This document shows positions 22,254 through 60,420 of a stretch of 64,000 bases of DNA, piece by piece. The position numbers were made by a program, and so were the translations under genes. Position 1 is the stretch's first letter; every line of letters starts with the position of its first letter. This DNA is from Comamonas sp. lk (GTDB taxonomy: Bacteria > Pseudomonadota > Gammaproteobacteria > Burkholderiales > Burkholderiaceae_C): NCBI RefSeq assembly GCF_900564145.1, contig NZ_UOOB01000001.1, forward strand, positions 1,614,754 through 1,678,753, in the 5' to 3' direction. The notes under the pieces were generated by a model. The model worked only from the letters and a program-made list of their open reading frames with translations. It did no database searches and was not told where the DNA came from.

Positions 22254-22271
22254 TTAGTCTTATTGGACGAT
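22254..22271 (+). promoter_or_regulatory. Dyad site A, TTAGTC-N6-GACGAT (candidate TesR operator)
   Basis: TTAGTC TTATTG GACGAT ends 66 bp before the start of the first SDR gene. It shares GTC-N6-GACGAT with sites at 25846, 41475 and 60403, and its first seven bases (TTAGTCT) with site B. Confidence 0.7.
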
Positions 22272-22337
22272 GGGCATTCCTGCGTCTTTTCCTAAGCTGT
22301 CTCCATGCGTCGATCGCAAATCAACAAGGAGACATGT

Positions 22338-23072
22338 ATGCGTTTAGCTGGAAAAGTGGCCGTAGTCACAGGTGCAGGTCAAGGCATGGGCCGCGCAATT
22401 GCCCAACGTTTCGCTGACGAAGGTGCCACCGTGGTGGCGGTGGACCTGAACGAAGAGGCTGCAAAGCAGACGCTGGACGGCAAGAGCGGCAAGCATGCCG
22501 CCCGTTCGGTGAATGTGGCCGACAGCAGCGCAGTCGAAAAGCTGTTCGCCGAGATCAAAAAGGATTTTGGTCAGGTGGACGTGCTGGTGAACAACGCCGG
22601 TGTGGGCTCGGTAGACCAGTTTGCCGACATTCCTGATGAAACCTGGGCGCGAGTGATCGGCGTGAACCTCAACGGCGCTTTTTACTGCGCCCGCCAGGCC
22701 GTGAAGCTGATGCAGGAAACCCAAACCGGCGGCACCATCGTCAACATCTCCAGCACTTCGGCCATCAGCGGCGATGGCCCTGCGCACTACTGCGCATCCA
22801 AGGCAGCGCTGATGGGCTTGACGCGCGGCATGGCCAAGGAGCTGGCTCCCAAGGGTATCCGCGTGAACACGCTGGTTCCCGGCCCCACCAACACGCCCAT
22901 GATGCAAGGCATTCCTCAGGAATGGGCCGATGCCATCATCGCCGGCGTTCCCATGGGCCGCATGGCCGACCCAGACGATATCGCCAAAGTCGCAGTGTTC
23001 CTGGCCAGCGATGACAGCAGCTTTGTGACCGGTCAGAACGTGGCAGTCAACGGCGGCAGCGCCTTCCTGTAA
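22338..23072 (+). CDS. Short-chain dehydrogenase/reductase, steroid cluster
   Basis: The 244-residue classical SDR has cofactor motif TGAGQGMG (residues 11-18), NNAG (85-88) and catalytic Ser139, Tyr151, Lys155 (YCASK). Asp36 at the end of the second strand favours NAD over NADP. The ATG at 22338 has AAGGAG 11 nt upstream. It heads a four-gene unit behind dyad site A and directly follows the prophage boundary. Probable substrate is a hydroxysteroid or a hydroxyacyl-CoA intermediate of steroid breakdown. Sequence alone does not tell which position is oxidised. Confidence 0.85.
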   Translation: MRLAGKVAVVTGAGQGMGRAIAQRFADEGATVVAVDLNEEAAKQTLDGKSGKHAARSVNVADSSAVEKLFAEIKKDFGQVDVLVNNAGVGSVDQFADIPDETWARVIGVNLNGAFYCARQAVKLMQETQTGGTIVNISSTSAISGDGPAHYCASKAALMGLTRGMAKELAPKGIRVNTLVPGPTNTPMMQGIPQEWADAIIAGVPMGRMADPDDIAKVAVFLASDDSSFVTGQNVAVNGGSAFL

Positions 23073-23084
23073 GGAGAGATGAAG

Positions 23085-23852
23085 ATGAGCAAGCGTCTGG
23101 AAGGTAAGGTAGCTTTTGTGACGGGTGGCGGCTCCGGTATCGGTGCTGCAACCGCCGAGCGTTTCGCACAAGAGGGTGCAACCGTGGTGATCTGCGGTCG
23201 CCGCCAAGAACCGCTTGATGCTGTTGTGACCAAGATCAAGGCGGCTGGCGGCAAGGCTGAGGCCGTGGTCGCCGATGTGGGTCAGGAAGCTCAGATCGTG
23301 GGCGCACTGGAGCAAGCCGCCAGGAATCACGGCGGTCTGGACATTCTGGTGAACAACGCCATGGCCTATACCTGGGGTGCTATCGACTCTATGACGACTC
23401 AGGACTGGCAAGCCAACTTCGGCACGTCCGTGGACGGTACTTTCTGGGGTACGCGCACGGCATTGAAGCTGATGAAGGCCAAGGGCGGCTCCATCGTCAA
23501 TCTGAGCTCCATCTGCGGCACATTGGGCACGCCTTATATGTCCGGCTACTCGGCGGCCAAGGCTGCGGTCATCAATTTCTCGCGTGCTGCGGCCGCTGAG
23601 GGCGCGCCCGCCGGCGTGCGTGTGAATGTGGTGATTCCTGCCGTGGTGGAGACGCCAGCAACGGCAGGCATGCTGGCCGATGACGCATCGCGCAAGACCA
23701 CCGAAAAGCTCATTCCCATGGGCCGCGTGGGTCAGTCCCATGAGCTGGCCAATGCCATCTTGTTCCTGGCCAGCGATGAAGCCAGCTATGTGACGGGTGC
23801 TGCACTGCCTGTGGATGGCGGTCGCTCTGCCGTTCTGGTGACTGCGCTGTAA
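23085..23852 (+). CDS. Short-chain dehydrogenase/reductase, steroid cluster
   Basis: The 255-residue SDR shows TGGGSGIG (13-20), a CGRR segment after the second strand suggesting NADP, and catalytic Ser, Tyr155 and Lys159 (YSAAK). The usual NNAG reads NNAM, a small departure from the family. The ATG at 23085 is chosen over 23079 because AGGAG is 8 nt upstream of it; the previous gene's stop lies inside that ribosome-binding site. It is translated with the preceding SDR and likely acts on a neighbouring steroid hydroxyl or keto group. Confidence 0.83.
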   Translation: MSKRLEGKVAFVTGGGSGIGAATAERFAQEGATVVICGRRQEPLDAVVTKIKAAGGKAEAVVADVGQEAQIVGALEQAARNHGGLDILVNNAMAYTWGAIDSMTTQDWQANFGTSVDGTFWGTRTALKLMKAKGGSIVNLSSICGTLGTPYMSGYSAAKAAVINFSRAAAAEGAPAGVRVNVVIPAVVETPATAGMLADDASRKTTEKLIPMGRVGQSHELANAILFLASDEASYVTGAALPVDGGRSAVLVTAL

Positions 23853-23865
23853 GAGGATGGCCGAG

Positions 23866-24513
23866 ATGAGTGAATCCGTGAATCAATGGCCAAACACGCT
23901 GGACGAGCGCATCGACCGTCTGGAGTCGCTGGATGCCATCCGCCAGCTGGCGGGTAAATATTCTTTGTCGCTGGACATGCGCGACATGGAGGCCCACGTC
24001 AATCTTTTTGCTTCCGATATACGGGTGGGCAAGGAAAAAGTGGGGCGCGCGCACTTCATGGCCTGGCAGGACAGCACGCTGCGTGACCAGTTCACGGGCA
24101 CCTCCCATCACCTGGGCCAGCACATCATCGAGTTTGTGGACAAGGACCATGCCACGGGCGTCGTCTACTCCAAGAACGAGCATGAGTGCGGTGCCGAGTG
24201 GGTCATCATGCAGATGCTGTACTGGGATGACTATGAGCGCATGGATGGTCAGTGGTTCTTCCGCCGCCGCCTGCCCTGCTACTGGTATGCCACCGATCTG
24301 AACAAGCCGCCCATAGGCGACATGAAGATGCGCTGGCCAGGTCGCGAGCCTTATCACGGCGCTTTCCACGATCTGTTTCCCAGCTGGAAGGAGTTCTGGG
24401 CGAATCGTCCGGACAAGGATGTCCTGCCCCAGGTGGCAGCTCCCGCGCCGCTGGAACAGTTTCTCAAGACCATGCGCCGCGATACCCCCGCACCGCGCAT
24501 GCGTGTTCGCTAA
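23866..24513 (+). CDS. NTF2/SnoaL-like protein
   Basis: The 215-residue protein matches the SnoaL-4/NTF2-like type: an N-terminal RIDRLESLDAIRQLAGKYSL helix, AHVNLFASDI, a histidine-rich TSHHLGQHIIEF strand and DGQWFFRRRLPCYWY. This alpha+beta cone fold is used by ketosteroid isomerases, dehydratases and polyketide cyclases. In an SDR/flavoenzyme operon it may isomerise, dehydrate or simply bind a steroid intermediate. The Tyr/Asp pair of bacterial ketosteroid isomerase cannot be assigned from sequence alone. Start 23866 leaves 9 nt to the GAGG; 23857 would leave none. Confidence 0.75.
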   Translation: MSESVNQWPNTLDERIDRLESLDAIRQLAGKYSLSLDMRDMEAHVNLFASDIRVGKEKVGRAHFMAWQDSTLRDQFTGTSHHLGQHIIEFVDKDHATGVVYSKNEHECGAEWVIMQMLYWDDYERMDGQWFFRRRLPCYWYATDLNKPPIGDMKMRWPGREPYHGAFHDLFPSWKEFWANRPDKDVLPQVAAPAPLEQFLKTMRRDTPAPRMRVR

Positions 24514-24531
24514 GCAAAGTTAGGAGTGCGG

Positions 24532-25614
24532 ATGAGTACCACACTGTTTACACCCATCACGCTGGGCAAGATTGCGCTGCAAAACCGTATCGTCATGGCT
24601 CCCATGACGCGCAACCGCGCAACTCCGGACGGCGTGCCTACGCAAGCCATGGCAAAGCACTACGGTGCGCGTGGCGATGCGGGTCTGATCGTGGCGGAAG
24701 GCACCTGGCCTGAAGCCATCGGCCAGGCTTACTGCCGTCAGCCCGGGATTGAAACGGCAGCGCAGGTACAGGCCTGGCGCCGTGTGACGGATGCGGTGCA
24801 TGCGCGCGGCGGCTCCATCGTGTTGCAGATCATGCATTCCGGCCGTATTGGCAGCAGCCATATCAAGCCCCAAGGAGTGCGTACCGTATCGGCTTCGGCA
24901 CTCAAGGCCCAGGGCCAGGTCTGGACCGATGCGGCAGGCATGCAGGACTATGAGGTGCCCCATGCACTGACGACCGAAGAGGTGCGCCAGGCGGTCGCCG
25001 AGCATGCTGCTGCTGCCAAGCGCGCCATGGATGCCGGCTTTGATGGTGTGGAGTTGCACGGCACCAGCGGCTATCTGTGCATGCAGTTCCTGAGTTCCGC
25101 AACGAATCAGCGCACCGACGAGTACGGCGGCAATGCCGCCAGCCGCGCCCGCTTTGCTGTCGAGTGCCTGGCTGCAATGGCCGAGGCCATCGGTGTGGAC
25201 CGCGTGGGTTTGCGCCTGAATCCTGGCAATACCTTTAACGACACCTCGGACGAAAACTCGGCCGCCACGCATGGAGAATTGATGCGCCAGTCCGCCAAGC
25301 TGGGCATTGCCTACCTGCATGTGATGCGTGCGGTGTTTGACCCGAGCATTGATGCCTTTCAGCTGGCGCGCGAGAATTTTGGCCAGAACCTGATTCTCAA
25401 CGATGGTTTTGATGCCCAGAGTGCACAAGCGGCGCTCGATGCAGGCCAGGGTCAGGCGGTGTCTTTTGCCCGCCATTTCATCGGCAATCCCGATCTGGTG
25501 CAGCGCATGCGCCAGGGTCTGCCGCTGGCCAGGTTCGATCGCAAGACGCTCTATACCGCTGGTGACGAGGGTTACAACGACTATGCGTCGGCCGCCGAGA
25601 TGCAGGCCGCCTGA
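24532..25614 (+). CDS. Old-yellow-enzyme-family flavin oxidoreductase with altered HxxN motif
   Basis: The 360-residue protein is an FMN-dependent ene-reductase-type TIM barrel (FTPITLGKIALQNRIVMAPM, then TNQRTDEYGG and ARHFIGNPDLV). In the active site the usual His-x-x-Asn reads His176-Gly-Thr-Ser179, with Tyr181 kept. OYE enzymes reduce C=C conjugated to a carbonyl, so a steroid enone or dienone reductase is plausible. The Asn-to-Ser change may shift substrate orientation. The ATG at 24532 sits 6 nt after AGGAG. A strong terminator after it closes this unit. Confidence 0.87.
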   Translation: MSTTLFTPITLGKIALQNRIVMAPMTRNRATPDGVPTQAMAKHYGARGDAGLIVAEGTWPEAIGQAYCRQPGIETAAQVQAWRRVTDAVHARGGSIVLQIMHSGRIGSSHIKPQGVRTVSASALKAQGQVWTDAAGMQDYEVPHALTTEEVRQAVAEHAAAAKRAMDAGFDGVELHGTSGYLCMQFLSSATNQRTDEYGGNAASRARFAVECLAAMAEAIGVDRVGLRLNPGNTFNDTSDENSAATHGELMRQSAKLGIAYLHVMRAVFDPSIDAFQLARENFGQNLILNDGFDAQSAQAALDAGQGQAVSFARHFIGNPDLVQRMRQGLPLARFDRKTLYTAGDEGYNDYASAAEMQAA

Positions 25615-25706: not shown

Positions 25707-25934
25707 GCGTCCATCGCCGATGGGGTCGTGCTGCAGTTGCTACGAGCTACCTCAAGCGGCCGATTATTTTCGAGGGTAACTACCGATATCCCTTGTAGAT
25801 AAAGCGCATGCTGCTATCAAATCAGTTGCAAAAAGCAGATTCCCGTTAGTCTCAACGGACGATGTTTATACGGGGGTACATCACCAGAATCCATACATCA
25901 ATCTACAAAAGACTGGGTTGGAGGCCCCGACATC
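25707..25934 (+). promoter_or_regulatory. tesB control region
   Basis: This is a 228-bp region between the terminator and tesB; the whole gene-free stretch is 25615-25934. It holds dyad site B, a GCTATCAAA nonamer (25813-25821) also seen elsewhere in the host part, and an AT-rich stretch downstream of the dyad (TTTATA, CATACATCAAT) where a promoter -10 could lie. No open reading frame is convincing here. Confidence 0.6.
25846..25863 (+). promoter_or_regulatory. Dyad site B, TTAGTC-N6-GACGAT (candidate TesR operator)
   Basis: TTAGTC TCAACG GACGAT ends 71 bp before the tesB start. It shares both half-sites exactly with site A; only the spacer differs. Confidence 0.72.
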
Positions 25935-26849
25935 ATGATGAATATACGTGGACTGGCATACGTTGTTGCCGAGAGCTCGGATATGGATCGCTGGATCGGT
26001 TATGCCCGTGACGTGCTGGGCATGATGCCCAGCACCACGGCCGATGGCACCTTGTTGATCAAGATGGATGAGCGTCAGTTTCGCTTTCAGGTACAGCCCG
26101 GACGCAACGACAAATATCTGGCCTCTGGCTGGGAAGTCGCGAACCAGGAGGCTTTCGAGCAAGCCCTGAAGGTGCTGGATGCTGGCAAGGTCGGCTACGA
26201 ACTGGGTAGCGCAGAACTGTGTGCCAAGCGCCAGGTGCAGCAGCTGGCCGTGGTGAGGGATCCTTCGGGCAACCGCCATGAGATTGTCTGGGGCTTCAAG
26301 TCCGACTTCACCCACTTTGCCTCTCCCCAGGGTGTCTCCAAATTCATTACCGGCGATTACGGACTGGGTCATACCGTGTTGCCCGCTCCGGACTTCGAAA
26401 AGACCGTCGCCTTTGTGCGCGATGTACTGGGTTTTGGCCTGTCGGACATCTACAACTTCAAGCCTGCGGGAGATGCCGGCCCCACCATCCGCATCCATTT
26501 TTTCCACTGCGAAAACGCTCGCCACCACAGCCTGGCGCTGGCCGAGTTTCCTGCAGCTTCGGGTTGCGTACACGTGATGGTGGAAGTGGACAACATGCCT
26601 GAAGTGGGCCGCGCCATGGATCGCATGAAAGCCCAGCAGGTGGCGCTTTCGGCCACCTTGGGCCAGCACACCAACGACAAGATGATTTCCTTTTACATGA
26701 AGACGCCTTCCAACTTCGATCTGGAGTTTGGTTACGGCGGCGCCATCATCGATTGGGACCATCACATCACACACGAATTTACGACGGTCAGCCTCTGGGG
26801 GCACGACTTCAGCGTGGGACGCCCCGCGACTAACGATAAGGAGGCATGA
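25935..26849 (+). CDS. tesB: Extradiol dioxygenase TesB (3,4-DHSA 4,5-dioxygenase)
   Basis: The 304-residue type I extradiol dioxygenase has two vicinal-oxygen-chelate modules. The Fe(II) ligands are His146 (GLGHTVL), His213 (GCVHVMVEV) and Glu264 (DLEFGYG), with His198 (ARHHSLAL) as probable active-site acid/base. In C. testosteroni TesB, and in actinobacterial HsaC, this enzyme cleaves the aromatised A ring of the 9,10-seco steroid by meta-cleavage. The CoA-transferase-like pair, crotonases and regulator downstream match the known tesB-to-tesR arrangement. It is the first gene of a roughly 15-kb unit behind dyad site B. Confidence 0.93.
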   Translation: MMNIRGLAYVVAESSDMDRWIGYARDVLGMMPSTTADGTLLIKMDERQFRFQVQPGRNDKYLASGWEVANQEAFEQALKVLDAGKVGYELGSAELCAKRQVQQLAVVRDPSGNRHEIVWGFKSDFTHFASPQGVSKFITGDYGLGHTVLPAPDFEKTVAFVRDVLGFGLSDIYNFKPAGDAGPTIRIHFFHCENARHHSLALAEFPAASGCVHVMVEVDNMPEVGRAMDRMKAQQVALSATLGQHTNDKMISFYMKTPSNFDLEFGYGGAIIDWDHHITHEFTTVSLWGHDFSVGRPATNDKEA

Positions 26850-26852
26850 GAC

Positions 26853-27731
26853 ATGGCCAACAAATTGATGACGGCAAAAGACGTCGTGGCTTCCATCAAG
26901 GACGGCATGACGGTTGGTATTGGTGGCTGGGGCCCGCGCCGCAAGCCCATGGCCCTGGTGCGCGAGCTGCTGCGCAGCCCGGTCAAGGACTTGACGGTGG
27001 TGGCTTATGGCGGAGCCGATGTAGGCATGCTGTGCGCTGCAGGCAAGGTCAAGAAGCTGATCTTCGCCTTTGTCTCGCTGGACTTCATCCCGCTGGAACC
27101 TTACTTTCGCAAGGCCCGTCAGAGCGGCTCCATCGACGTGATGGAAATCGACGAAGGCCATATGGTGCTGGGCTTGAAGGCTGCCGGCATGCGCATTCCC
27201 TACATTCCCACCCGCGTGGGTCTGGGCACGGATGTGCTCAAGCAAAACAACGGCATCCAGCTGATCGAGTCGCCCTATGACGGCAAGGAATGGTTGGCCA
27301 TGCCCGCCATCAATCTGGATGTGGCCCTGCTGCACGTGGATCGCGCGGACTCGCGCGGTGTCTGCCAGATCAGCGGCCCCGACATCTATATGGACGACCT
27401 GTTTGCCCGCGCTGCCAAGAACACTTTCGTGAGCTGCGATGAGCTGGTGGAGTCCAGCAGCTTCGAATCGGCCGATGCCGCCCGTCTGGTGTTCTGGGAG
27501 CGTTCGGAAACCACAGGCGTGGTGCACCTGCCTGGTGGTGCGCACCCCACATCGTGTGCTCCCTTGTACGGCTTCGATGTCAAGCACCTCAAGGAATACA
27601 CGGGCAGCGCCAAGGAAGACGCAGGCTGGGACGAGTACGTGCAGAAGTACGTGCAGTGCAGCGAGCAGGAATATCAGGAAAAAGTCGGTGGCATGGACGC
27701 GATCAAGCGCTTGCCCTTGCCCGTGTTCTAA
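26853..27731 (+). CDS. ipdA: IpdA-type subunit of steroid ring-opening CoA hydrolase
   Basis: The 292-residue protein has the class I CoA-transferase alpha fold (DGMTVGIGGWGPRRKPMALV, then LAMPAINLDVALLHVDRAD). Its sequence and partners match IpdA of the cholesterol catabolic IpdAB complex, which opens the last steroid ring hydrolytically rather than transferring CoA. The likely C. testosteroni name is scdL1. It starts 3 nt after tesB and is followed by the beta subunit after 11 nt, so the complex is made stoichiometrically. Confidence 0.87.
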   Translation: MANKLMTAKDVVASIKDGMTVGIGGWGPRRKPMALVRELLRSPVKDLTVVAYGGADVGMLCAAGKVKKLIFAFVSLDFIPLEPYFRKARQSGSIDVMEIDEGHMVLGLKAAGMRIPYIPTRVGLGTDVLKQNNGIQLIESPYDGKEWLAMPAINLDVALLHVDRADSRGVCQISGPDIYMDDLFARAAKNTFVSCDELVESSSFESADAARLVFWERSETTGVVHLPGGAHPTSCAPLYGFDVKHLKEYTGSAKEDAGWDEYVQKYVQCSEQEYQEKVGGMDAIKRLPLPVF

Positions 27732-27742
27732 GGAAGCAGAAG

Positions 27743-28513
27743 ATGAGTGAAATTAATTTGGTGGATCGCGTCATCTGTGCTGCAGCACGAGCCTGGGAAA
27801 AAGATGGCGAAGTGCTGGCAACCGGCATCGGCCTGGTGCCGCGCCTGGCGGCCTCGCTGTGCATGAAGTCTATCAACACCGATTTGATGATGACGGATTC
27901 CGAAGCCTGGATGGTGAGCGAGCCCGTGCCCGTCGGCCCTCGTGGCGACTATCAGATCAAGCGTGAATCGTGGATGGGCTTCTCGCGCATTTTCGACAAT
28001 GTGTGGGGCGGCAAACGCCACGCCATGGTCGGCCCCATCCAGGTCGATCGTTTCGGGCAAGCCAATATCTCCATGGTGGGCGGTGACTATGCGCGCCCCA
28101 AATCCATGATGCTGGGTGTGCGCGGCTTTCCGGGCAACTCCATCAATCACGCCAATTCCTTTTTTGTTCCCAACCACAGCCCCAAGGTGTTCGTGGCGGG
28201 CGAGGTGGACATGGTCGGTTCGGTGGGCTACAACCGGGCACGTCTGGCCAAGGGCTGGACGCTGGAAGAAACCACGGATATCCGCTTCATCTTCACCAAT
28301 CTGTGCGTGATGGACTTCGGCGGCCCTGACTATCAGGTGCGTTTGCTGAGTCTGCATCCCGGCGTGACGGTGGCGCAGGTGGTGGAAGCTACGGGTTTTC
28401 CCATCCATGTGCCGGGAAACGTGGGCGTGACTGCCGACCCCACGCCAGAGCAACTGGCCTTGCTGGCCCAGATTGATCCGCACAATCTGCGCGCTACGGC
28501 CATGGGAGCCTGA
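27743..28513 (+). CDS. ipdB: IpdB-type subunit of steroid ring-opening CoA hydrolase
   Basis: The 256-residue protein is the beta partner, with a CoA-transferase fold: EVLATGIGLVPRLAASLCM, then GGDYARPKSMMLGVRG and FTNLCVMDF. In true class I transferases a catalytic Glu occupies the ENG-type motif of this subunit; here the region reads TDSEAWMVSEPVPVG, so the usual motif is not obvious. This agrees with IpdAB acting as a hydrolase. The likely C. testosteroni name is scdL2. The ATG at 27743 follows GGAAG; longer upstream frames overlap ipdA. Confidence 0.86.
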   Translation: MSEINLVDRVICAAARAWEKDGEVLATGIGLVPRLAASLCMKSINTDLMMTDSEAWMVSEPVPVGPRGDYQIKRESWMGFSRIFDNVWGGKRHAMVGPIQVDRFGQANISMVGGDYARPKSMMLGVRGFPGNSINHANSFFVPNHSPKVFVAGEVDMVGSVGYNRARLAKGWTLEETTDIRFIFTNLCVMDFGGPDYQVRLLSLHPGVTVAQVVEATGFPIHVPGNVGVTADPTPEQLALLAQIDPHNLRATAMGA

Positions 28514-28514
28514 T

Positions 28515-29420
28515 ATGGAAAACGCAGCTTCCAGCGAATTCGTGACACGGGAAGACCGGGCTGTCTATGAGACAGACGAACCCGTGCTCTACAGCGTGGA
28601 CAACGGCGTTGCCACGGTCACCATGAATCGGCCCACGTTCAACAACGTGCAGAACTCTCAGATGACCTATGCGCTGGATGCTGCTTTGCGCCAGGCCACC
28701 GATGACGATGAGGTCAAAGTCATCGTGCTGCGGGGTGTGGGCAAACATTTCAGCGCCGGCCATGACATAGGCACTCCAGGCCGTGACATCAACAAGTCTT
28801 TCGACCGGGTTCACCTGTGGTGGGACCACACCAACAAGCCCGGTGGCGAGCAGCTGTTCGCCCGCGAGCAGGAGGTGTATCTGGGCATGTGCCGCCGCTG
28901 GCGCGATATTCCTAAGCCCATGATTGCCATGGTGCAGGGCGCTTGCGTGGCCGGCGGTCTGATGTTGGCCTGGGTCTGCGATCTCATCGTGGCAAGCGAT
29001 GACGCTTTCTTCCAGGATCCCGTGGTGCGCATGGGCATTCCCGGCGTGGAGTATTTCGCCCACGCCCATGAGTTGCATCCACGCATTGCCAAGGAGTTTC
29101 TGCTTCTGGGTGATCGCATGGGGGCCGAGCGCGCCTATCAGATGGGCATGGTCAACCGGGTGGTGCCGCGTGCAGAGTTGGAAGATCAGGTGTACGCCAT
29201 CGCCCAACGTCTGGCCGCGCAGCCCCGCCTGGGAATGGCGCTGACCAAGTTGGTCGTCAACAAGGCTGAAGAGCTGCAAGGCCTGCGTTCCACCATGGAC
29301 ATGGCTTTTGGCTACCACCACTTTGCCCACGCCCATAGCCAATCCATGGGCATGGGGCAGCTGGGTGGCCAGGACGCCAAGTCCATGGTCAACGCCAACA
29401 AAAAGGAGGCAGCCCAATGA
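28515..29420 (+). CDS. Crotonase-superfamily (enoyl-CoA hydratase-like) protein
   Basis: The 301-residue crotonase is longer than the usual 260. The CoA-binding/oxyanion segments are GKHFSAGHDIG and MVQGACVAGGLMLAWVCDLI; the customary GxLGGG reads CVAGGLML. A C-terminal His-rich stretch (YHHFAHAHSQSMGMGQLGG) is characteristic of the enoyl-CoA hydratases found in steroid clusters. It could hydrate or cleave an intermediate of C/D-ring degradation. It probably corresponds to a TA441 scd gene next to scdL2, but the exact symbol is not certain. It lies 1 nt after the ipdB stop. Confidence 0.8.
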   Translation: MENAASSEFVTREDRAVYETDEPVLYSVDNGVATVTMNRPTFNNVQNSQMTYALDAALRQATDDDEVKVIVLRGVGKHFSAGHDIGTPGRDINKSFDRVHLWWDHTNKPGGEQLFAREQEVYLGMCRRWRDIPKPMIAMVQGACVAGGLMLAWVCDLIVASDDAFFQDPVVRMGIPGVEYFAHAHELHPRIAKEFLLLGDRMGAERAYQMGMVNRVVPRAELEDQVYAIAQRLAAQPRLGMALTKLVVNKAEELQGLRSTMDMAFGYHHFAHAHSQSMGMGQLGGQDAKSMVNANKKEAAQ

Positions 29421-30496
29421 GTGACGTCAATGCATTGCGCACACCGCTGTGCGATTTGCTGGGTTGCCGCTATCCCATCATCCAGACCGCCATGGGCTGG
29501 GTGGCGGGCGCGGATCTGGTGGTGGCCACCACCAATGCCGGAGGCTTCGGCTTTCTGGCCGGTGCCACGATTGCGGCCGACAGGATCGAAGACGAGATCC
29601 TCAAGGTCAAGCGCCTGACTGGCGATCAGCCGTTTGGCCTGAACTTTCACATGTTCCAGCCCAATGCCGATCAGCTGCTGGACCTGGCCGTGAAGTACAA
29701 GCTGCGCGCCGTCAGCTATGGCCGCGGTCCGGACAAGAAGGTGATCGGCCGTCTGCGCGATGCCGGCATCGTCTGCATGCCCACCGTGGGCGCCTTGAAG
29801 CACGCCCAGAAAGCCATAGAGATGGGCGCCAACGCCATCACGGTGCAAGGTGGTGAAGGTGGCGGTCATACCGGCAGCGTGCCCACCACGGTGCTGCTGC
29901 CCCAGGTGGTGGATGCGGTCAACGTGCCCGTGGTGGCCGCCGGCGGCTTTTATGACGGACGCGGCTTGCTGGCTGCTCTGGCATACGGTGCCTCCGGCAT
30001 TGCCATGGGGACGCGTTTTCTGATGACCAGCGATTCCAAGGTGCCCGAGGTCACGTTGCAGCGCTATGTGGCCACCAAGGATGCCGAGAAGATCGCCGTC
30101 TCGCATCTGGTCGACGGCATGCCGCAACGCATGATCCCCAACGAATACCTGTCCATGCTGGAAAAAGCCAGCCCCATGAAGCGCCTGCGCATTGCGCTGG
30201 ATCTGGCCTTGAAGTGGAAGGCCGAGACCGGCATGACCACAGGCCAGGCCTTGAGCATTTTCATGAAGGCCGTGCGCGAGGATTCCTCCTCCGTGGCCCA
30301 GACCGTGATGGCAGCCAATGCTCCCATGTTGCTGCAGCGCTCCATGGTGGACGGCAATCCTGCCGAAGGCGTGATGTCTGCCGGTCAGGTGGCAGCCCTG
30401 ATCGGCGGGCTGGACAGTTGCGAAGAGGTGATCGCCGGCATCGTGCGGCAAGCCATGGAGCGTCGCAGCGTTCTGAATCAATTGACCCTTGCTTAA
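29417..30496 (+). CDS. ipdC: IpdC-type nitronate-monooxygenase-family flavoprotein
   Basis: The 359-residue FMN TIM barrel is of the 2-nitropropane dioxygenase family: TNAGGFGFLAGATI, then VQGGEGGGHTGSVPTTVLLP and GASGIAMGTRFLMT. In actinobacterial steroid catabolism the family member encoded beside ipdA/ipdB is IpdC, an oxidoreductase that introduces a double bond into the C/D-ring intermediate before ring opening. The same neighbours occur here. It overlaps the preceding crotonase by 4 nt. A nitronate-detoxifying role is unlikely in this setting. Confidence 0.85.
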   Translation: MSDVNALRTPLCDLLGCRYPIIQTAMGWVAGADLVVATTNAGGFGFLAGATIAADRIEDEILKVKRLTGDQPFGLNFHMFQPNADQLLDLAVKYKLRAVSYGRGPDKKVIGRLRDAGIVCMPTVGALKHAQKAIEMGANAITVQGGEGGGHTGSVPTTVLLPQVVDAVNVPVVAAGGFYDGRGLLAALAYGASGIAMGTRFLMTSDSKVPEVTLQRYVATKDAEKIAVSHLVDGMPQRMIPNEYLSMLEKASPMKRLRIALDLALKWKAETGMTTGQALSIFMKAVREDSSSVAQTVMAANAPMLLQRSMVDGNPAEGVMSAGQVAALIGGLDSCEEVIAGIVRQAMERRSVLNQLTLA

Positions 30497-30518
30497 AGAA
30501 GTTCCCAAGAGCCCGGAT

Positions 30519-31277
30519 ATGTCCTCTCAACAATTTCACTCGAAGATTCATGACAACGGTGTGGCAGAGCTGGTGATTGACCGAGCCCCCGTGAACGCCC
30601 TGAACGCCGCTGGCTGGAACGGCCTGGCCAGGGAAATCCAGGCCCTGGGCGACAAGCCCGAAGTGCGCGTGATTGTGATCCGTGCCGAAAACCGCGGTTT
30701 TTGTGCCGGTGTGGACATCAAGGAACTGGCCAGCAACGACAAGCTCATCGTGGATGTGAATGCCGGCAACTACGCCACCTTCAAGGCGGTGCACCTGAAC
30801 AAGGTGCCAGTGATTGCGGCTGTGCACGGTTTTGTGCTTGGCGGCGGCATCGGTATCTGCGGTGCCTCCGACATCGTGATCGCTGCCGAAGATGCCACTT
30901 TCGGTTTGCCCGAGGTAGACCGTGGCGCCATGGGTGGTGCGGCGCATCTGCAGCGCATGTTTGGCGTGCAAAAGACCCGCTACCTGTTTTTCACGGGCGA
31001 AATGATTGGCGCGCAAGAAGCCTTGCGTCTGGGTGCCATCGAGCGCGTGGTGCCGCGCGAGCAACTGCGCGATGTGGCCCTGGAGATTGCGGGAAAGATC
31101 GCCGCCAAGAGCCCCGCCATGATCCGCATCGCCAAGGAAGCGCTGACCGGCATTGAAGACGGCAACCTCGAAGACAAATATCGCTGGGAGCAGGGCTTTA
31201 CCCTGCAGGCCTACATGAGCCCGGATTCCGCAGAGACACGCAGTGCGTTTGTGGATAAGCGGGACGCCAAGTTCTGA
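30519..31277 (+). CDS. echA20: EchA20-type crotonase (steroid D-ring cleavage)
   Basis: The 252-residue crotonase resembles mycobacterial EchA20 over its full length: VIRAENRGFCAGVDIKEL, then VPVIAAVHGFVLGGGIG and EDATFGLPEVDRGAMGGAAH. EchA20 hydrolyses the five-membered D ring of the steroid CoA ester. In C. testosteroni the same step is attributed to an Scd enzyme (scdY, less certain). The ATG at 30519 has only a weak upstream AAGAG. It precedes the acyl-CoA dehydrogenase pair in the same transcription unit. Confidence 0.84.
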   Translation: MSSQQFHSKIHDNGVAELVIDRAPVNALNAAGWNGLAREIQALGDKPEVRVIVIRAENRGFCAGVDIKELASNDKLIVDVNAGNYATFKAVHLNKVPVIAAVHGFVLGGGIGICGASDIVIAAEDATFGLPEVDRGAMGGAAHLQRMFGVQKTRYLFFTGEMIGAQEALRLGAIERVVPREQLRDVALEIAGKIAAKSPAMIRIAKEALTGIEDGNLEDKYRWEQGFTLQAYMSPDSAETRSAFVDKRDAKF

Positions 31278-31305
31278 CCCTGATTGCGCAACGAGGAGAA
31301 AACCA

Positions 31306-32460
31306 ATGGATTTGACATATACCCCTGCGCAGAAAGCCTTCCGTGCGCAAGTGCGGGCCTGGCTCAAGGACAACGTGCCCAAGGAGCGCCTGCAGAGCTA
31401 CGACACCCGTGAAGGCTTTGAGCAGCATCGTGTCTGGGAGGCCAAGCTGGCCGAAGCGGGCTATAGCGCCGTGATGTGGCCCAAGGACCTGGGCGGCTGC
31501 GGCTGCGATCTGACCGAATGGCTGATCTTTGAAGAGGAATACTGGGCTGCCGATGCGCCCCAGCGCGTGAACCAGAACGGCATCTTGCTGCTGGGCTCCA
31601 CCATCATGGAGTTCGGCACACCCGAGCAAAAAGCCCGTTTCCTGCCCCGCATGGCGCGTTGCGACGATATGTGGGCCCAGGGCTGGTCCGAGCCCAATGC
31701 CGGCTCCGACATGGCGGCCATCAGCAGCCGTGCCATTCGCAAGGATGACAAGTACATCCTCAACGGCCAGAAGATCTGGTCCACCCGCGCCATTTTTGCC
31801 GACTGGCTGTTTGGCCTGTTCCGCAGCGATCCCACTTCGAGCCGCCACCACGGCCTGAGCTACATCCTGGTGCCTTTGAACACGCCCGGCATCACCGTGC
31901 GCCCCATCAAGGCCTTGAACGGCAAGGACGCTTTCGCGGAAATCTTCTTTGATGATGTGGAAGTGCCAGCAGAAAACCTGATCGGTGCCGAAGGCCGGGG
32001 CTGGCATGTGGCCATGGCAACCGCCGGCTTCGAACGTGGCTTGCTGCTGCGCTCGCCGGCCCGCTATCAGCGCAGTGCCCAAAAGCTTGTGGAGCTGTAT
32101 CTGCGCAACCAGGTGGAAGCCGATCGCGATCACTCGATTCGCGATGCCGTGCTGCGCGCCTGGGAAGGCGCAGAAGCCTATACCCTGTCTTCCTATCACA
32201 CGGTGGGCCGCTTGAACAAAGGCGCCCAGATCGGTGCCGAAGCCAGTACCAACAAGATTGTCTGGTCCGAGCTGGACATTCTGATTCACGAGACTGCCAT
32301 GCGCATTCTCGGCCCTCGCGCCGAGCTGACGGATGACGTTGAAGCCAATGAATGGCTGGAAGGTTTCCTGTTTGCGCAGGCCGGCCCCATCTATGCGGGC
32401 AGCAACGAGATCCAGCGCAACATCATTGCCCAGCGCATGCTGGGTCTGCCCAAATCCTGA
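31306..32460 (+). CDS. Acyl-CoA dehydrogenase, alpha-type subunit of a heteromeric pair
   Basis: The 384-residue ACAD has the flavin/substrate motifs WAQGWSEPNAGSDMAAISSRA and LNGQKIWSTRA, and the C-terminal GPIYAGSNEIQRNIIAQRML. The Glu of the canonical YEG motif is replaced by Ala (YAG), as often in steroid-type ACADs, whose base sits elsewhere. The next gene encodes a shorter partner, so the enzyme is probably an alpha2-beta2 heterotetramer acting on ring-degradation CoA esters (similar to FadE31-33 or the scd-type ACADs). The start has GAGGAG 9 nt upstream. Confidence 0.86.
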   Translation: MDLTYTPAQKAFRAQVRAWLKDNVPKERLQSYDTREGFEQHRVWEAKLAEAGYSAVMWPKDLGGCGCDLTEWLIFEEEYWAADAPQRVNQNGILLLGSTIMEFGTPEQKARFLPRMARCDDMWAQGWSEPNAGSDMAAISSRAIRKDDKYILNGQKIWSTRAIFADWLFGLFRSDPTSSRHHGLSYILVPLNTPGITVRPIKALNGKDAFAEIFFDDVEVPAENLIGAEGRGWHVAMATAGFERGLLLRSPARYQRSAQKLVELYLRNQVEADRDHSIRDAVLRAWEGAEAYTLSSYHTVGRLNKGAQIGAEASTNKIVWSELDILIHETAMRILGPRAELTDDVEANEWLEGFLFAQAGPIYAGSNEIQRNIIAQRMLGLPKS

Positions 32461-32476
32461 TCGGTAGGAGACAAAC

Positions 32477-33616
32477 ATGGACTTCACCTTCTCCGAAGAA
32501 CAAATCGCTTTCCGTGATTCGGTCAGCCGTTTTCTGATGACCGAAGCCGCTCCCGAGCTGCTGCGCGAGATCTGGGAAACCGAATCGGGCCGCTCGCCCG
32601 AGCTGTGGACCAAGATTGCCGAGCAAGGCCTAATGGGCCTGTCCGTACCCGAGGCCGAAGGCGGCATGGGCATGAGCGATATCGACTGGGCCTTGCTGCA
32701 GCAGGAAGTGGGCTACTACTCCTTGCCCGACTCCCTGACCGACACGGCCTATGTGGCGGCAGGCATGCTGTCCGCATTGCCCCAAGACCATGTCTTGCGC
32801 AGCGAATGGTTGCCCAAGATTGCCGAGGGCAGCTGCCGTGTTGCCGTGGGTCACCCCGTCAATCTGCATGTGGCCGATGCGGCTTTGGCCGACCTGCTGC
32901 TGCTGCCCCATGTCACCAGCGCGGGCGTGGAGCTGCATGTGCTCAAGCCCGGCCAGTGCCAGATCACCGAACTCAAGAGCTTCGATACATCGCGTCGTCT
33001 CTGCCAGGTGCAGTGGACGGCGTCGGATGCGACCCGCGTGCTCGATGCCGTACAGGGCCAGAAAGTCTGGGACCTGGCCGGCGAGCGCGGTGCTCTGTGT
33101 GCCGCCGCCCAGTTGCTGGGCCTGGCTCAGCGCATGCTGGACTTGTCGGTGGACTATGTGGCCCAGCGCAAGCAGTTTGACAAGGCCATCGGCAGCTTCC
33201 AGGCGGTGCAACACCATCTGGCCGATATCGTGACCAAGATCGAGTTTGCCAAGCCGGTGCTGTACCGCGCTTTCTACGCGATCCAGCATGGCGAGGCCGA
33301 TCTGGCGGTGCGCATCTCGCACGCCAAGCTGCAATGCAGCGAGGCAGGCTGGTTTGCGGCCCGCAACAGCCTGCAGGTACATGGCGCCATGGGCTACACC
33401 TGGGAAGTGGACCTGCAGATGTTCATGAAGCGCGCCTGGACGCTGGACGCGGCCTGGGGCGACAAGGCCTATCACTCGGCCCGCCTGACCACGGGATTGC
33501 TGCGCAATCCCCATCCGCCCGTGGGCCCTGGTGCCACGTTCGATAGAGAAATCCATAGCGGCTGCGCATCGCAAACCACAGCCTGCAAACCCATTGCCGA
33601 GGAGATGGCTGCATGA
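32477..33616 (+). CDS. Acyl-CoA dehydrogenase, beta-type subunit of a heteromeric pair
   Basis: The 379-residue ACAD has a degenerate middle and conserved ends: MDFTFSEEQIAFRDSVSRFL, then YVAQRKQFDKAIGSFQAVQH and LQVHGAMGYTWEVDLQMF. The FAD/substrate motif seen in its partner is missing, as in the non-catalytic or half-site subunits of steroid ACADs. It follows the alpha gene by 16 nt and overlaps the thiolase start (ATGA). About 30 extra C-terminal residues (NPHPPVGPGATFD onward) are unusual. Confidence 0.84.
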   Translation: MDFTFSEEQIAFRDSVSRFLMTEAAPELLREIWETESGRSPELWTKIAEQGLMGLSVPEAEGGMGMSDIDWALLQQEVGYYSLPDSLTDTAYVAAGMLSALPQDHVLRSEWLPKIAEGSCRVAVGHPVNLHVADAALADLLLLPHVTSAGVELHVLKPGQCQITELKSFDTSRRLCQVQWTASDATRVLDAVQGQKVWDLAGERGALCAAAQLLGLAQRMLDLSVDYVAQRKQFDKAIGSFQAVQHHLADIVTKIEFAKPVLYRAFYAIQHGEADLAVRISHAKLQCSEAGWFAARNSLQVHGAMGYTWEVDLQMFMKRAWTLDAAWGDKAYHSARLTTGLLRNPHPPVGPGATFDREIHSGCASQTTACKPIAEEMAA

Positions 33617-34767
33617 GCGCCCAAGCCTATATTGTTGATGCCCTGCGCTCGCCCACAGGCAAGCGCAAAGGTTCTCTGGCCCAGGTTCACGGCGCCGATC
33701 TCGGCGCCCATGTGATCAAGGCCCTGGTGGAGCGCAACGAGATCCCGGCGGCTGACTATGACGATGTGATCTTCGGCTGTGTGGACACCATTGGTGCACT
33801 GGCCGGCGACATTGCCCGCACCTCCTGGCTGGCCGCCGGCATGCCTTTGAACGTGCCTGGCACCACCATCGACCGCCAGTGCGGCTCCTCTCAGCAGGCC
33901 ATTCATTTTGCGGCCCAGGCCGTGATGAGCGGCACGCAGGATGTGGTGCTGGCCGGCGGCGTGCAGACCATGACGGCCATCCCGATTTCCTCGGCCATGC
34001 TGGCCGGTCAGGCCCTGGGCTTTACCACGCCGTTTGCCGAGAGCAAGGGCTGGCAGGCGCGTTTTGGCAATGCTCCTGTCAACCAGTTCTACGCGGCGCA
34101 GCGCATTGCTGACCATTGGGGTGTAAGCCGTGCCGACATGGAAGTGTTTGCCAAGGAAAGCCATGACCGTGCCTTGCGGGCGATTGCCGAAGGCCGCTTC
34201 GATCGCGAAATCGTACCGTTTGGCGATTTCAAGATGGATGAAACCGCACGCCTGAGCACGCTGGAGAAAATGGCGACGCTGGAGCCCGTTGATCCTACTT
34301 ACCCCAAGATCACGGCTGCAGTTTCCAGCTCCACCTGCGATGCCGCAGCCGCTGTGCTGGTGGTCTCCGAAGCGGCGCTCAAGCGCTACAAGCTGACGCC
34401 CCGTGCCCGCATTCATCATATCAGCGTGCGTGCCGATGATCCCATCTGGCACCTGACGGCCCCGATCGCGGCCACGGAGTTCGCGCTCAAGAAATGCGGC
34501 ATGAGGCTGTCCGACATTGATCTGGTGGAGATCAACGAAGCGTTTGCTTCCGTGGTCATGGCCTGGCTCAAGGAAACCGGCTACGACCATGCCAGTACCA
34601 ATGTCAACGGCGGTGCGATTGCCCTGGGCCATCCTCTGGGTGCCTCGGGCGCCAAGCTGATGACCACGCTGCTGCACGAACTGGAGCGCACCGGCGGTCG
34701 CTACGGTCTGCAAACCATGTGCGAGGGCGGCGGTCAGGCCAATGTGACCATCATCGAACGCCTCTGA
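33613..34767 (+). CDS. Thiolase (acyl-CoA C-acyltransferase)
   Basis: The 384-residue thiolase has the nucleophile Cys90 ([12 protein letters not shown]), the His in [15 protein letters not shown] and the second Cys in TMCEGGGQ. It cleaves a 3-ketoacyl-CoA, releasing acetyl- or propionyl-CoA. Its place after an ACAD pair, in the ipdAB/echA20 unit, matches FadA6-type thiolases of the C/D-ring pathway. The Ser-Ser-Gln after Cys90 differs from the common ASG, a feature of steroid thiolases. A long hairpin follows it. Confidence 0.86.
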
Positions 34768-34773
34768 TGTAGG

Positions 34774-34805
34774 GCAATGCAGGCACCGCAAGGTGCCTGC
34801 ATTGC
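34774..34805 (+). repeat. Perfect 14-bp intercistronic hairpin (GCAA loop) before the amidase pair
   Basis: GCAATGCAGGCACC and its exact complement surround a GCAA tetraloop. There is no T-run, so it is more likely an RNA-processing or stability element than a terminator. Confidence 0.85.
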
Positions 34806-34867
34806 GTTCAGCCCAGAACGTTCGCAGTGCAGCAAGTCATTCTAAAAATACCAATGGAGACAAAGAC

Positions 34868-36445: not shown

Positions 36446-36455
36446 AGGAGCCGCA

Positions 36456-38051: not shown

Positions 38052-38059
38052 TTTTAATG

Positions 38060-38084
38060 CGCAGGCCCGTGGAACGGGCCTGCG
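38060..38084 (+). repeat. Perfect 11-bp intercistronic hairpin after the amidase pair
   Basis: CGCAGGCCCGT-GGA-ACGGGCCTGCG, without a T-run. Like the hairpin at 34774 it contains GCAGG...CCTGC, and the two lie on either side of the amidase pair. Confidence 0.85.
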
Positions 38085-38109
38085 ATGCAAGCCAAAAAAG
38101 GGGACTGAA

Positions 38110-44197: not shown

Positions 44198-45445
44198 ATG
44201 ATGGACAGCGCTTACGCCAAGATGGGTTTTTCAACGTACATACCCCGCTCCCTGGAGTGTGTGCTGAAGGATGTACCAGTTTTTGACACCCCGGTGGTGA
44301 CTGCACGCGCCATGGACACTCCGTTCATCAGCGCCGAGCAGCTCAGCAACCTCGTCAGCCTGCTTTATGAAGCGGCTCTCGATCCCGAAGGCTGGAAGCC
44401 GTTTCTGGAGGCCTTGCGCCTTCAGCTGGGCGGCAACTACGCTTCGCTGATCGTGCGCCCTGGCAGTGCCGATGATGTGGGTCTGATCGTGTCTGCAGCG
44501 GGTGGCCGCACGGACCTGATGCCCAACTCCCCCAAGATCAGCATGAGTCCGTTTCGTGGCATGCCCACGGACCGCATTGTGACCGTGGGCGATGTGATGC
44601 CCGAGTCCGAGTGGCGCGCTTCGAGCTACTACAAGGACTGGTGCAAGCAGATGGAGGTCTTCCATGTGATGGCGGCCGACATCGTGACCAAGGATGGTTG
44701 CGTCTACGGCCTGCGCATCACGCGTCCGGAAACCGCTGCGGCATTCAACAAGCAGGAACGTGCATTCGGCAGCATGCTTCTGGGCCATATCAAGCGCGCA
44801 CTGAATCTGCATCTGTCCGTGAACCAGGATCGTCAGGTCATCTCGCTGTACAGCAAGGCCACGGCCCAGCTGATGGTGGGGGTGGTGATTCTGGATCAGA
44901 ACGGCTCGGTGCTGGAATGCAATCCGGCAGCGGCCAGCATTCTGGACATGCAGGACGGCCTGAAGATCTCCGGCGGCATGCTGGAGGCCAACTACGCCAA
45001 CGACAACCGCAAGATGCAGCGCCTGATCAAGGACGCCTTGCTGCATACCCAGGTTTCGCGTCTGTCCATGACCGAAGGCATGTCGGTCAGCCGCCAGTCG
45101 GGTCAGCTCAACTGGGGCGTGGTGGTGCAAAGCATCTCTCCCGATGAGTGGACCGAAGGTAAGCAGCGCCCCAGCGTGGCCGTGTTTGTGCGCGACACGG
45201 GCGGCAAGGCCGATCCACCGGTCAAGCTGGCCCAGCAGCTGTTCCAGCTGACACCGGCCGAAACCTCGCTGGCAATTCAGCTGGCCAACGGCCTGTCGCT
45301 GGAAGAGGCCGCCGAAGCGCTGAACATTCGTCGCAACACCGCGCGTGCCCATCTGCGCTCCATCTTCTCCAAGACCGGCGTGCGTCGCCAGACCGAGCTG
45401 GTGCGCATCTTCCTCAACAGCGTGGCCTGGCTGGGCAACAAGTAA
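44198..45445 (+). CDS. tesR: LuxR-type regulator of steroid degradation (TesR/TeiR)
   Basis: The 415-residue protein has a C-terminal LuxR-type helix-turn-helix (FQLTPAETSLAIQLANGLSL, then EAAEALNIRRNTARAHLRSI and TGVRRQTELVRI) and a central PAS-like segment (LMVGVVILDQNGSVLECNPA). Its place about 18 kb downstream of tesB, same strand, is that of TesR (also called TeiR), the positive regulator of steroid degradation genes in C. testosteroni. ATG 44198 has AAAGG 7 nt upstream. The PAS-like part may sense a steroid or redox signal. It is the best candidate to bind the GTC-N6-GACGAT sites. Confidence 0.88.
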   Translation: MMDSAYAKMGFSTYIPRSLECVLKDVPVFDTPVVTARAMDTPFISAEQLSNLVSLLYEAALDPEGWKPFLEALRLQLGGNYASLIVRPGSADDVGLIVSAAGGRTDLMPNSPKISMSPFRGMPTDRIVTVGDVMPESEWRASSYYKDWCKQMEVFHVMAADIVTKDGCVYGLRITRPETAAAFNKQERAFGSMLLGHIKRALNLHLSVNQDRQVISLYSKATAQLMVGVVILDQNGSVLECNPAAASILDMQDGLKISGGMLEANYANDNRKMQRLIKDALLHTQVSRLSMTEGMSVSRQSGQLNWGVVVQSISPDEWTEGKQRPSVAVFVRDTGGKADPPVKLAQQLFQLTPAETSLAIQLANGLSLEEAAEALNIRRNTARAHLRSIFSKTGVRRQTELVRIFLNSVAWLGNK

Positions 45446-49391: not shown

Positions 49392-49409
49392 TTAGTCTGA
49401 ATCAGGTAG
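49392..49409 (+). promoter_or_regulatory. Degenerate dyad site E in a divergent control region
   Basis: TTAGTC TGAATC AGGTAG keeps the left half-site exactly (and GCTTAGTCT as in site A) but the right half matches only in part. It lies 70 bp upstream of the thiolase start, the same distance as the better sites. Treat as tentative. Confidence 0.35.
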
Positions 49410-58762: not shown

Positions 58763-58868
58763 CGGTGCCGGTTTCCAGCTGTGCTGAATCGGCGGCGTAT
58801 ATTTCCGCAGCCCCGGCTTTACCAATCAAGCGCGACCCACTAGATCGCGCCCTCCAAGGAGACAGATC

Positions 58869-60230
58869 ATGAGTGCATCTGCAGCGGCATCCATGCCCCA
58901 GCCCGCCGCCACCAAGGCCCAACCCATCAGCAATGTGCAGGGCTGGCGGCGCCACTACCTCCTGCTGGTGCTGCTCTTCGTCTATGCCATGAGCATGATC
59001 GACCGGCAGATCATGGGCGTGCTGATCGAGCCTATCAAAAAGGAAATGGGCGTCTCCGACAGTGCCATGGGCTTGCTGACCGGGCTGGCGTTTGCGCTGT
59101 TCTACAGCATTCTGGCCGTGCCATTCGGGCGCTTTGCAGACCGTACCAATCGCCGCAATCTGATTGCCTGGTGCTGCGGTGCCTGGAGTATTGCCACGGG
59201 TCTGTGCGGCATGGCCGTCGGCTTTTGGTCGCTGACGGCGGCGCGCGTGGGCGTGGCCGTGGGCGAGGCCGGCAGCACCGCTGCATCGACCACCATGATT
59301 GCCGATGTCTACCCGCCAGAGCAGCGCAGCCGCGCCATGAGCGTGTTCAGTCTTGGCCCGCATCTGGGCTCTCTGGTGGGCCTGGGTGTGGGGGCCTGGA
59401 TTGCCCAGAACTATGGCTGGCGCACGGCTTTTCTGGCCTTGGCCGTGCCCGGAGTGCTGGCTGCCCTGATGCTGCGCCTGACTTGCCGCGAACCGGTGCG
59501 TGGCGCGCAAGATGCCAGGCCGGTGGTGCAGGCCGGCGTTGAAAAATTCTCGGAAGTGATGCTCTCCCTGCGCAGCAACAAGGCTTTTGTGGGCCTGGGG
59601 CTGGCGGGCATGCTGATGGCGTTTTCCGGCTACGCGATAGGCATGTGGAACACCGCCTTTCTGGTGCGCTCGCACGGTCTGCAACTCAAGGATGCCGGTG
59701 CCATCATGGGCTTTATCGGCGGACCGGCGGCGATTGTGGGCGCGCTGCTGAGCGGCTGGTTGACCGATGTGATGGCCAAGCGTGATGCGCGCTGGCAGAT
59801 CGGCATGCCGGTGCTGGGGATTTTGCTCTCCATCCCGCTGGGCCTGCTTTTCTATATCAACGATTCGCCGGCGCAGTGGCAGGTGGCGGGTTTGCAGATT
59901 CCACACTCCGTTGCCTACTACGGCGCCTTTGCCGTGTTCTCCAGCTTCTGGGCGGCACCGGTATTTGCCGCGCTGACGAATGTGATCGTCTCCACGCGGC
60001 TGGCGACGGCATTGTCTGTCTACAACCTGTTGTTGACTGCGGTGGGAGGCGGTTTGGGGCCGCTGGCCGTGGGCTTGCTCAGCGATGCTTTCATTGCCCG
60101 CGCAGGCAACGAATCCCTGCGCTGGGCACTGATCTGCATGCTTGGGTTTTACCTGCTGGGTGCGCTGATCTATGCCTTGAGCCTCAAGCCCTATGTGAGT
60201 CAGCTCAAAGCCAAAAAATCCATGGCGTGA
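58869..60230 (+). CDS. MFS transporter (spinster-like)
   Basis: The 453-residue protein has 12 predicted membrane spans and the MFS signature loop after TM2 (GRFADRTNRRNLIAW). An early MIDRQIMGVLIEPIKKEM segment is typical of the spinster-like MFS group found in aromatic and steroid catabolic operons. Its long hydrophilic N-terminus (Ala/Pro-rich) is cytoplasmic. It probably moves a steroid, bile acid or degradation product across the inner membrane; direction cannot be told. AAGGAGACAG precedes its ATG. A strong terminator follows. Confidence 0.87.
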   Translation: MSASAAASMPQPAATKAQPISNVQGWRRHYLLLVLLFVYAMSMIDRQIMGVLIEPIKKEMGVSDSAMGLLTGLAFALFYSILAVPFGRFADRTNRRNLIAWCCGAWSIATGLCGMAVGFWSLTAARVGVAVGEAGSTAASTTMIADVYPPEQRSRAMSVFSLGPHLGSLVGLGVGAWIAQNYGWRTAFLALAVPGVLAALMLRLTCREPVRGAQDARPVVQAGVEKFSEVMLSLRSNKAFVGLGLAGMLMAFSGYAIGMWNTAFLVRSHGLQLKDAGAIMGFIGGPAAIVGALLSGWLTDVMAKRDARWQIGMPVLGILLSIPLGLLFYINDSPAQWQVAGLQIPHSVAYYGAFAVFSSFWAAPVFAALTNVIVSTRLATALSVYNLLLTAVGGGLGPLAVGLLSDAFIARAGNESLRWALICMLGFYLLGALIYALSLKPYVSQLKAKKSMA

Positions 60231-60265
60231 TGCGCCTTTAAGCATTCGCCAAACCCACTGTCGAT

Positions 60266-60304
60266 GGCCAAGGCCCGCACCGGATGCGGGCTTTGGCCGT
60301 TTTC
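60266..60304 (+). terminator. Intrinsic terminator closing the thiolase-to-MFS unit
   Basis: GGCCAAGGCCCGCA / TGCGGGCTTTGGCC stem (14 bp, one G-U pair) and a TTTTC run, 36 bp after the transporter stop. Confidence 0.87.
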
Positions 60305-60402
60305 ATTTGTACCGGTGTTTTTCGCCCAGGCTTGGGGAATTTTCTGTAGGAACAGCGTCTGCGATCTGAGAGCATGGGCTAGCAAAAACTGAGGGTCTGT
60401 AC

Positions 60403-60420
60403 CCCGTCCAAGCGGACGAT
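60403..60420 (+). promoter_or_regulatory. Dyad site D, CCCGTC-N6-GACGAT (candidate TesR operator)
   Basis: CCCGTC CAAGCG GACGAT ends 74 bp before the acyl-CoA ligase start. The right half-site and the GTC core match sites A-C exactly. A GAATAT that could act as -10 lies about 20 bp downstream. Confidence 0.7.

Follow-up and report, generated by a model that had tools for sequence, protein, structure and literature searches.

In actinobacteria, the TetR-type repressors KstR and KstR2 act through one operator, a palindrome other than the one described here, that is repeated before the units of the steroid catabolic cluster. In proteobacteria, the steroid catabolic cluster of Caenibius tardaugens likewise has a palindromic operator; EdcR is a repressor, however, and the palindrome proposed for it has a different sequence from ours and overlaps the -10 box (PMC8700777). 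In Comamonas testosteroni, TesR (TeiR) is a known activator of the tes units (PMC6895838, PMC6678751, PMC8399759, PMC8700777), and in strain TA441 it is needed to induce tesB-tesR, tesA1-tesG and tesA2-ORF18 (PMC6895838). Promoters with a lux box combine a regulator carrying a GerE-type helix-turn-helix (HTH) with a palindrome of ~20 bp centred near -42.5 (PMC4471428, PMC7585371). Here we describe a candidate TesR operator in 64,000 nucleotides of Comamonas sp. lk (contig NZ_UOOB01000001.1; hereafter the window), which correspond to C1:1614754-1678753 of a 4.9-Mb genome in two contigs and whose numbering is continued beyond their end. The regulator is that of C. testosteroni (91% identity to the ATCC 11996 protein), a TesR orthologue inside a tesB-tesR cluster with the same gene order, up to tesR, as the C. 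testosteroni loci L066 and L068. What we propose is the site together with its geometry and its targets, which we follow across beta- and gammaproteobacteria and genomes from a third class in the same phylum.

The window carries four intergenic copies of the dyad GTC-N6-GACGAT. Judged from sequence, the extended motif C-(A/T)-T-(A/C)-GTC-C-N4-G-GAC-GATG is very probably the operator of the LuxR-type steroid regulator TesR, a site of class II to which TesR would bind directly. The dyads, the -10-like elements that follow them and the regulator gene are as follows.

22254..22271 (+): putative operator dyad TTAGTC-TTATTG-GACGAT, 66 bp before the short-chain dehydrogenase/reductase (SDR) gene at 22338; orthologous site in C. 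testosteroni NFYY023 (genome G128) and in genome G018
22293..22298 (+): -10-like element TAAGCT at the canonical offset
25846..25863 (+): putative operator dyad TTAGTC-TCAACG-GACGAT, 71 bp before the TesB/HsaC-like gene at 25935; kept in G128 and G018
25885..25890 (+): -10-like element CAGAAT
41475..41492 (+): putative operator dyad ATCGTC-CAAAGT-GACGAT, its 6-bp arms perfect, 56 bp upstream of the likely start (41549); kept in loci L066-L069 and L075 of C. testosteroni and C. suwonensis, and in G018
41514..41519 (+): -10-like element CATGAT
60403..60420 (+): putative operator dyad CCCGTC-CAAGCG-GACGAT, 74 bp before the acyl-coenzyme A (CoA) synthetase gene at 60495; G128 keeps the right half only
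60442..60447 (+): -10-like element GAATAT
44198..45445 (+): tesR, LuxR-type regulator of 415 aa, with a weak PAS match (~218-288) and a GerE HTH (~351-404)

The initial annotation had listed these four dyads as intergenic, ending 56-74 bp before a gene, above chance expectation and with 41475-41492 as a perfect inverted repeat. A direct check of the sequence bore out the positions, letters and arms, the gene caller agreed on the intergenic placement, and the distances fall in the range given. On both strands of the window the pattern matches six times against 0.26 expected (100 dinucleotide shuffles, largest count 2). These six comprise the four sites (41475-41492 being counted on both strands) and a further match at 16109, absent from that earlier list, inside a long called open reading frame (ORF; 14211-16895). 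Because the gene caller was a simple home-made one, intergenic labels and starts are approximate and operons are presumed. The start at 41549 was read from the sequence where the caller chose 41603, and the longer ORFs at 22305 and 41522 have their first codon at the presumed transcription start or ahead of it. The LuxR-type regulator noted at 44198 was confirmed by the Pfam match to the GerE HTH.

A scan with the TesR protein yielded 72 loci from beta- and gammaproteobacteria (1.30 Mb), in which the pattern occurs 197 times against 9.0 in shuffled sequence. At least one match is present in 69 of the 72 loci, and an intergenic one in 59. Together with our own region, the loci hold 156 intergenic and 56 coding matches, and the intergenic enrichment is confined to the 6-bp spacer (156 matches, compared with 0-8 for the other spacers in the range 0 to 14). 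The 156 collapse to 108 non-redundant sites with the consensus C-(A/T)-T-(A/C)-GTC-C-N4-G-GAC-GAT-G, in which only the columns outside GTC and GACGAT count as independent evidence, since the search had fixed those; as TesR was the bait, locus counts alone cannot single it out. These loci place regulator and operator far beyond C. testosteroni. PMC6895838 repeats the claim that tesR-like genes occur in C. testosteroni only, while later literature already mentions TeiR-like genes outside that species.

The sites are also kept at orthologous promoters in related strains, on which the initial annotation had staked its reading. In C. testosteroni NFYY023, 10 of the 11 intergenic sites of the whole cluster (the further ones are listed below) are strictly conserved, the tesB counterpart there having been missed by the caller and its site matched by position; the eleventh, at 60406, is the one with only its right half. 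In G018, 7 of the 11 are kept. Across 18 aligned pairs the -10 block is 73% identical, compared with 34-48% for the other flanks.

We then turned to whole genomes, counting the pattern TNGTCYNNNNRGACGATG in 299 genomes of the family and taking at least 236 bits as a clear TesR. The 11 genomes with TesR hold a mean of 9.4 matches (minimum 6), and the other 288, which include 12 with weak LuxR hits (~24-29% identity), a mean of 1.39 (P 4e-9; counts transferred by hand between analyses). Six of the 288 reach at least six matches; the highest count belongs to G104, a genome 76% complete, and the two sites of the pattern that were retrieved from it have steroid genes around them. A separate comparison used the 16 genomes with a KshA domain match, 10 of them with a full-length TesR relative: 9 of these 10, all but G592, have a site no more than 20 kb from kshA, and none of the 6 without TesR does (Fisher 0.0009), the distances being read by eye, the 20-kb limit being set after the distances were seen, and several genomes being fragmented. 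The result holds without G000 and G128 (P 0.002) and without G000, G128, G426 and G615 (6/7 versus 0/5, P 0.008); G426 has a weak kshA match, and the TesR-negative group includes G791 and G886, whose hits are weak (62 and 52 bits). Some of the TesR-bearing kshA genomes belong to the third class.

Among 53 aligned TesR proteins (our own and 52 from the 72 loci), GerE is matched in all 53 (E 0.01), and 37 of 61 HTH positions are invariant, compared with 22 of 348 before the HTH. Their sensor part differs from that of LuxR quorum regulators: the autoinducer-binding domain is not among the 12 Pfam families matched by the 53 members, and a PAS fold, weakly matched, is found in 17. The relatives from the third class retain the HTH core NTARAHLR, which the LuxR proteins shown, of 24-29% identity, lack. 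Possession of this core is not sufficient, as it is also present in G592. No solved structural relative of the TesR profile was found at E 0.01. In a Pfam scan of the 76 called genes between 22338 and 117371 (cut-offs E 1e-3 to 1e-10, at which weak matches may escape; two genes scanned in part, three without a match), TesR alone had a DNA-binding domain match; no TetR match appeared among these genes, which sets the cluster apart from the KstR/KstR2 systems. Comamonas paralogues of TesR (59-65% identity, six loci) have a palindromic site 127-198 bp before their own called start, and their loci hold few or no genes like those of the cluster. The TesR relatives at L160 and L157 (G359 and G615) are each given with one stop inside the matched stretch.

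Two observations concern the neighbourhood of these genes. After tesR lies a gene for a GGDEF protein with Cache and PAS matches (45843-47669), without a site, and GGDEF-EAL genes precede the TesR paralogues in L077, L081 and L082, a recurring cyclic di-GMP neighbourhood.

The main competing explanation is that another transcription factor binds the dyad and that TesR acts upstream of it, for example through a phosphorylation cascade as proposed for TeiR. We consider this unlikely, although there are published grounds for it: TeiR has been reported as a kinase-linked polar membrane protein (PMC6678751, PMC8399759), and the cluster of C. testosteroni JLU460ET includes LysR and XRE regulators (PMC10637631). 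Yet no second DNA-binding domain was matched in the 76 cluster genes, the motif tracks TesR across genomes and also, outside the main cluster, adjoins its paralogues, no part of TesR is better conserved than the HTH, and the sites have the LuxR-like geometry described below. As to a membrane location, the most hydrophobic 19-residue stretch of TesR (mean 1.65, residues 214-232) coincides with the start of the PAS match. The reading of the dyads as candidate TesR/TeiR operators thus draws support from the sole DNA-binding match in the cluster, the conservation at TesR loci including those of the paralogues, the absence of sites near kshA in the 6 genomes without TesR, and the class II geometry.

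Several observations weigh against direct control by TesR. The reported membrane location and kinase activity of TeiR fit poorly with direct DNA binding. Five of the TesR-negative genomes, in which we found no convincing TesR, have 6 or 7 pattern matches in the genome scan; for one of them, G016, three fetched loci gave no match to the cluster proteins. G592 encodes a TesR-like protein (32%) with the same HTH core and has one match only, not near kshA. In G615, four TesR relatives are accompanied by just five matches, of which the closest to kshA is 19.6 kb away. In the RNA-seq data of JLU460ET, whose genes were matched to our cluster by gene order and annotation only, the excerpt of PMC10637631 lists no change under estradiol for the site-bearing tesR unit, and the counterparts of the units at 48046 and 49480 are induced by testosterone though they have no full site here (its Table 4).

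The same data set holds further results on the tesR unit. After 3 h of testosterone its SDR, dehydratase, thiolase and LuxR genes are up by log2 5.35, 5.57, 5.07 and 4.88 (PMC10637631); no change is listed at 13 h in the excerpt. A regulator-like gene beside tesR, whose likely counterpart here has no site, is unchanged (PMC10637631).

The distance between the dyad and a -10-like element is fixed, a feature additional to the initial annotation. Numbering GTC as positions 1-3, A38 and T42 mark the -10-like element: A...T starts at 38 in 60 of the 108 non-redundant sites and at 39 in 24 (median over offsets 4; maximum in 500 permutations 16), and it stands at the fixed offset in 11 of 13 own-cluster sites. 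A modest preference for C48 and A49 (44 and 43%) fits an initiator at the presumed -1/+1, and if A49 is +1 the centre of the dyad lies at -42.5, as in lux boxes. A -35 region lacking TTGACA lies under the proximal end of the dyad, at a spacing of 17 bp from the -10 element; its hexamer agrees with TTGACA on average at 2.6 of 6 positions, chiefly through the TG supplied by the operator end. With the transcription start so placed, the HTH, the palindrome near -42.5 and the operator lying over a poor -35 give the geometry of a LuxR-type (GerE) class II site. In contrast to lux boxes, the core is GTC-N6-GAC in 18 bp, and it precedes steroid rather than quorum genes.

A fixed distance to a -10-like element could also be expected if the conserved block were the -35-like element of a promoter for an alternative sigma factor. 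This is highly improbable, since the left arm is conserved and the dyad symmetric (T at position -1 in 100 of 108 sites, A or C at position 0 in 100 of 108), and a perfect-armed palindrome lies between divergent genes at 64094.

From the motif, its conservation, its spacing to the -10-like element and its co-occurrence with TesR, we infer a mechanism of direct activation. A TesR dimer carrying the steroid signal would bind the 18-bp palindrome, centred ~42.5 bp before the transcription start, with the proximal end over the non-consensus -35 region and an xAxxxT-type -10 element 17 bp further on. TesR would then contact RNA polymerase as a class II activator and activate no fewer than 11 promoters in the steroid megacluster, among them that of the unit ending in tesR, together with unlinked steroid-related genes. 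The broader proposition seems to us evenly poised: that a steroid regulon extending over beta- and gammaproteobacteria and the third class is defined by a single operator and a single receptor family, with TesR as a soluble one-component PAS-LuxR steroid receptor that binds directly rather than as the membrane kinase of a cascade, and with targets, whether linked or unlinked, predictable for each promoter from the pair of operator and -10 element. An operator with fixed geometry makes direct control by TesR testable. It also yields a target list, components for steroid biosensors and a promoter-based route to steroid genes. The regulator and the kind of site are already known; what appears to be new is the operator with its geometry and predicted regulon: no description of a TesR operator was found in the excerpts of the TesR/TeiR literature searched, whose scope did not extend to the original 2004 TeiR/TesR and 2008 kinase papers, so that one may have been given there.

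Specificity within the own genome depends on how the pattern is written. The loose pattern is not specific by itself, with 90 strand matches genome-wide versus 25 for a reversed control. Of these 90, 14 fall within 87 kb at the steroid cluster (binomial 8e-10, palindromes counting twice). The refined pattern THGTCYNNNNRGACGAT, drawn partly from our own sites and missing 4 of the 11 intergenic ones, has 10 physical matches (hand count), 8 of them in the 87-kb cluster, one of the 8 being coding (binomial 4e-13). With a matrix built from 97 sites of other genomes, our own intergenic sites receive the highest ranks, and weaker candidates emerge at 104452, 71857 and 77067; a threshold of 14 bits gives 19 strand hits (reverse echoes included), compared with 0.4 in simulated sequence. 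That the matches arise by chance or codon usage, as the 76 loose strand matches outside the cluster might suggest (of the first 24, 22 lie in coding frames and 2 are unclear), has a negligible probability and is, in our view, already refuted by the intergenic enrichment, the spacer specificity, the orthologous conservation and the fixed -10 offset.

The window shows only part of the regulon. Seven further intergenic sites lie within 46 kb past its end, so that the cluster holds 11 intergenic sites and one coding match (78699), and one candidate is unlinked. The units of the window and the sites beyond it are listed below; functions of the units are from Pfam.

22338..25614 (+): unit 1, SDR, SDR, SnoaL-like and flavin mononucleotide (FMN) oxidoreductase genes; gene calls, operon presumed
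25935..41339 (+): unit 2, first extradiol dioxygenase (TesB/HsaC type), CoA transferase and enoyl-CoA hydratases, also acyl-CoA dehydrogenases, thiolase, amidases and others; operon presumed
41549..45445 (+): unit 3, SDR, MaoC dehydratase, thiolase and tesR
60495..62132 (+): unit 4, acyl-CoA synthetase
49392..49409 (+): uncertain, a possible half-site consisting of TTAGTC only, followed by CAATCT at the canonical offset
64094/64097: palindrome with perfect arms between divergent amidohydrolase and major facilitator superfamily (MFS) genes
70327: intergenic site before an MFS gene; a weaker reverse site faces an aldehyde dehydrogenase gene
79330: intergenic site before an enoyl-CoA hydratase gene
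92296: intergenic site before a DUF1329-DUF1302 pair
100838 and 100896: intergenic sites, one for each of two divergent units
109694: intergenic site before a gene for an acyl-CoA-dehydrogenase-like flavoprotein

As tesR is the last gene of unit 3, this unit is probably autoregulated. The weaker match that the initial annotation had placed at 49392-49409 was rejected as a full operator (-3.1 bits on the site matrix) and survives only as a possible half-site; its TTAGTC half and the CAATCT element are found again ahead of the orthologue in C. testosteroni NFYY023 (L068 15632).

The unlinked candidate, C1:2430948, lies upstream of a gene for an SDR that shares 94.6% identity with an SDR encoded beside a bile-salt-hydrolase-like gene in C. 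testosteroni ATCC 11996, which also has the site. In G128 and G018, genes for DUF1329 proteins 64 and 76% identical to the protein encoded at 92437 lie far from the main cluster with a site upstream (L256/L258), and are further unlinked regulon candidates.

Three matches were excluded from the count of operators. Those at 16109 and 78699 are coding; the latter (78699-78713, L031:14699-14713) lies in frame inside an enoyl-CoA hydratase gene and encodes VCEDD, and its counterpart in G128 keeps the arms and not the spacer. The third, a perfect-armed palindrome at C1:563368, is inside a 474-aa ORF. The KstR operator pattern occurs once in the window (0.28 expected), at 4723, to the left of the steroid cluster; KstR-type operators are not supported.

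The gene layout of that left part (1-21617) gives a phage-like impression. A stretch at ~22090-22125, just before the first operator, looks by eye like the 3' end of a tRNA, no complete tRNA being found there by ARAGORN; it might be an attachment remnant.

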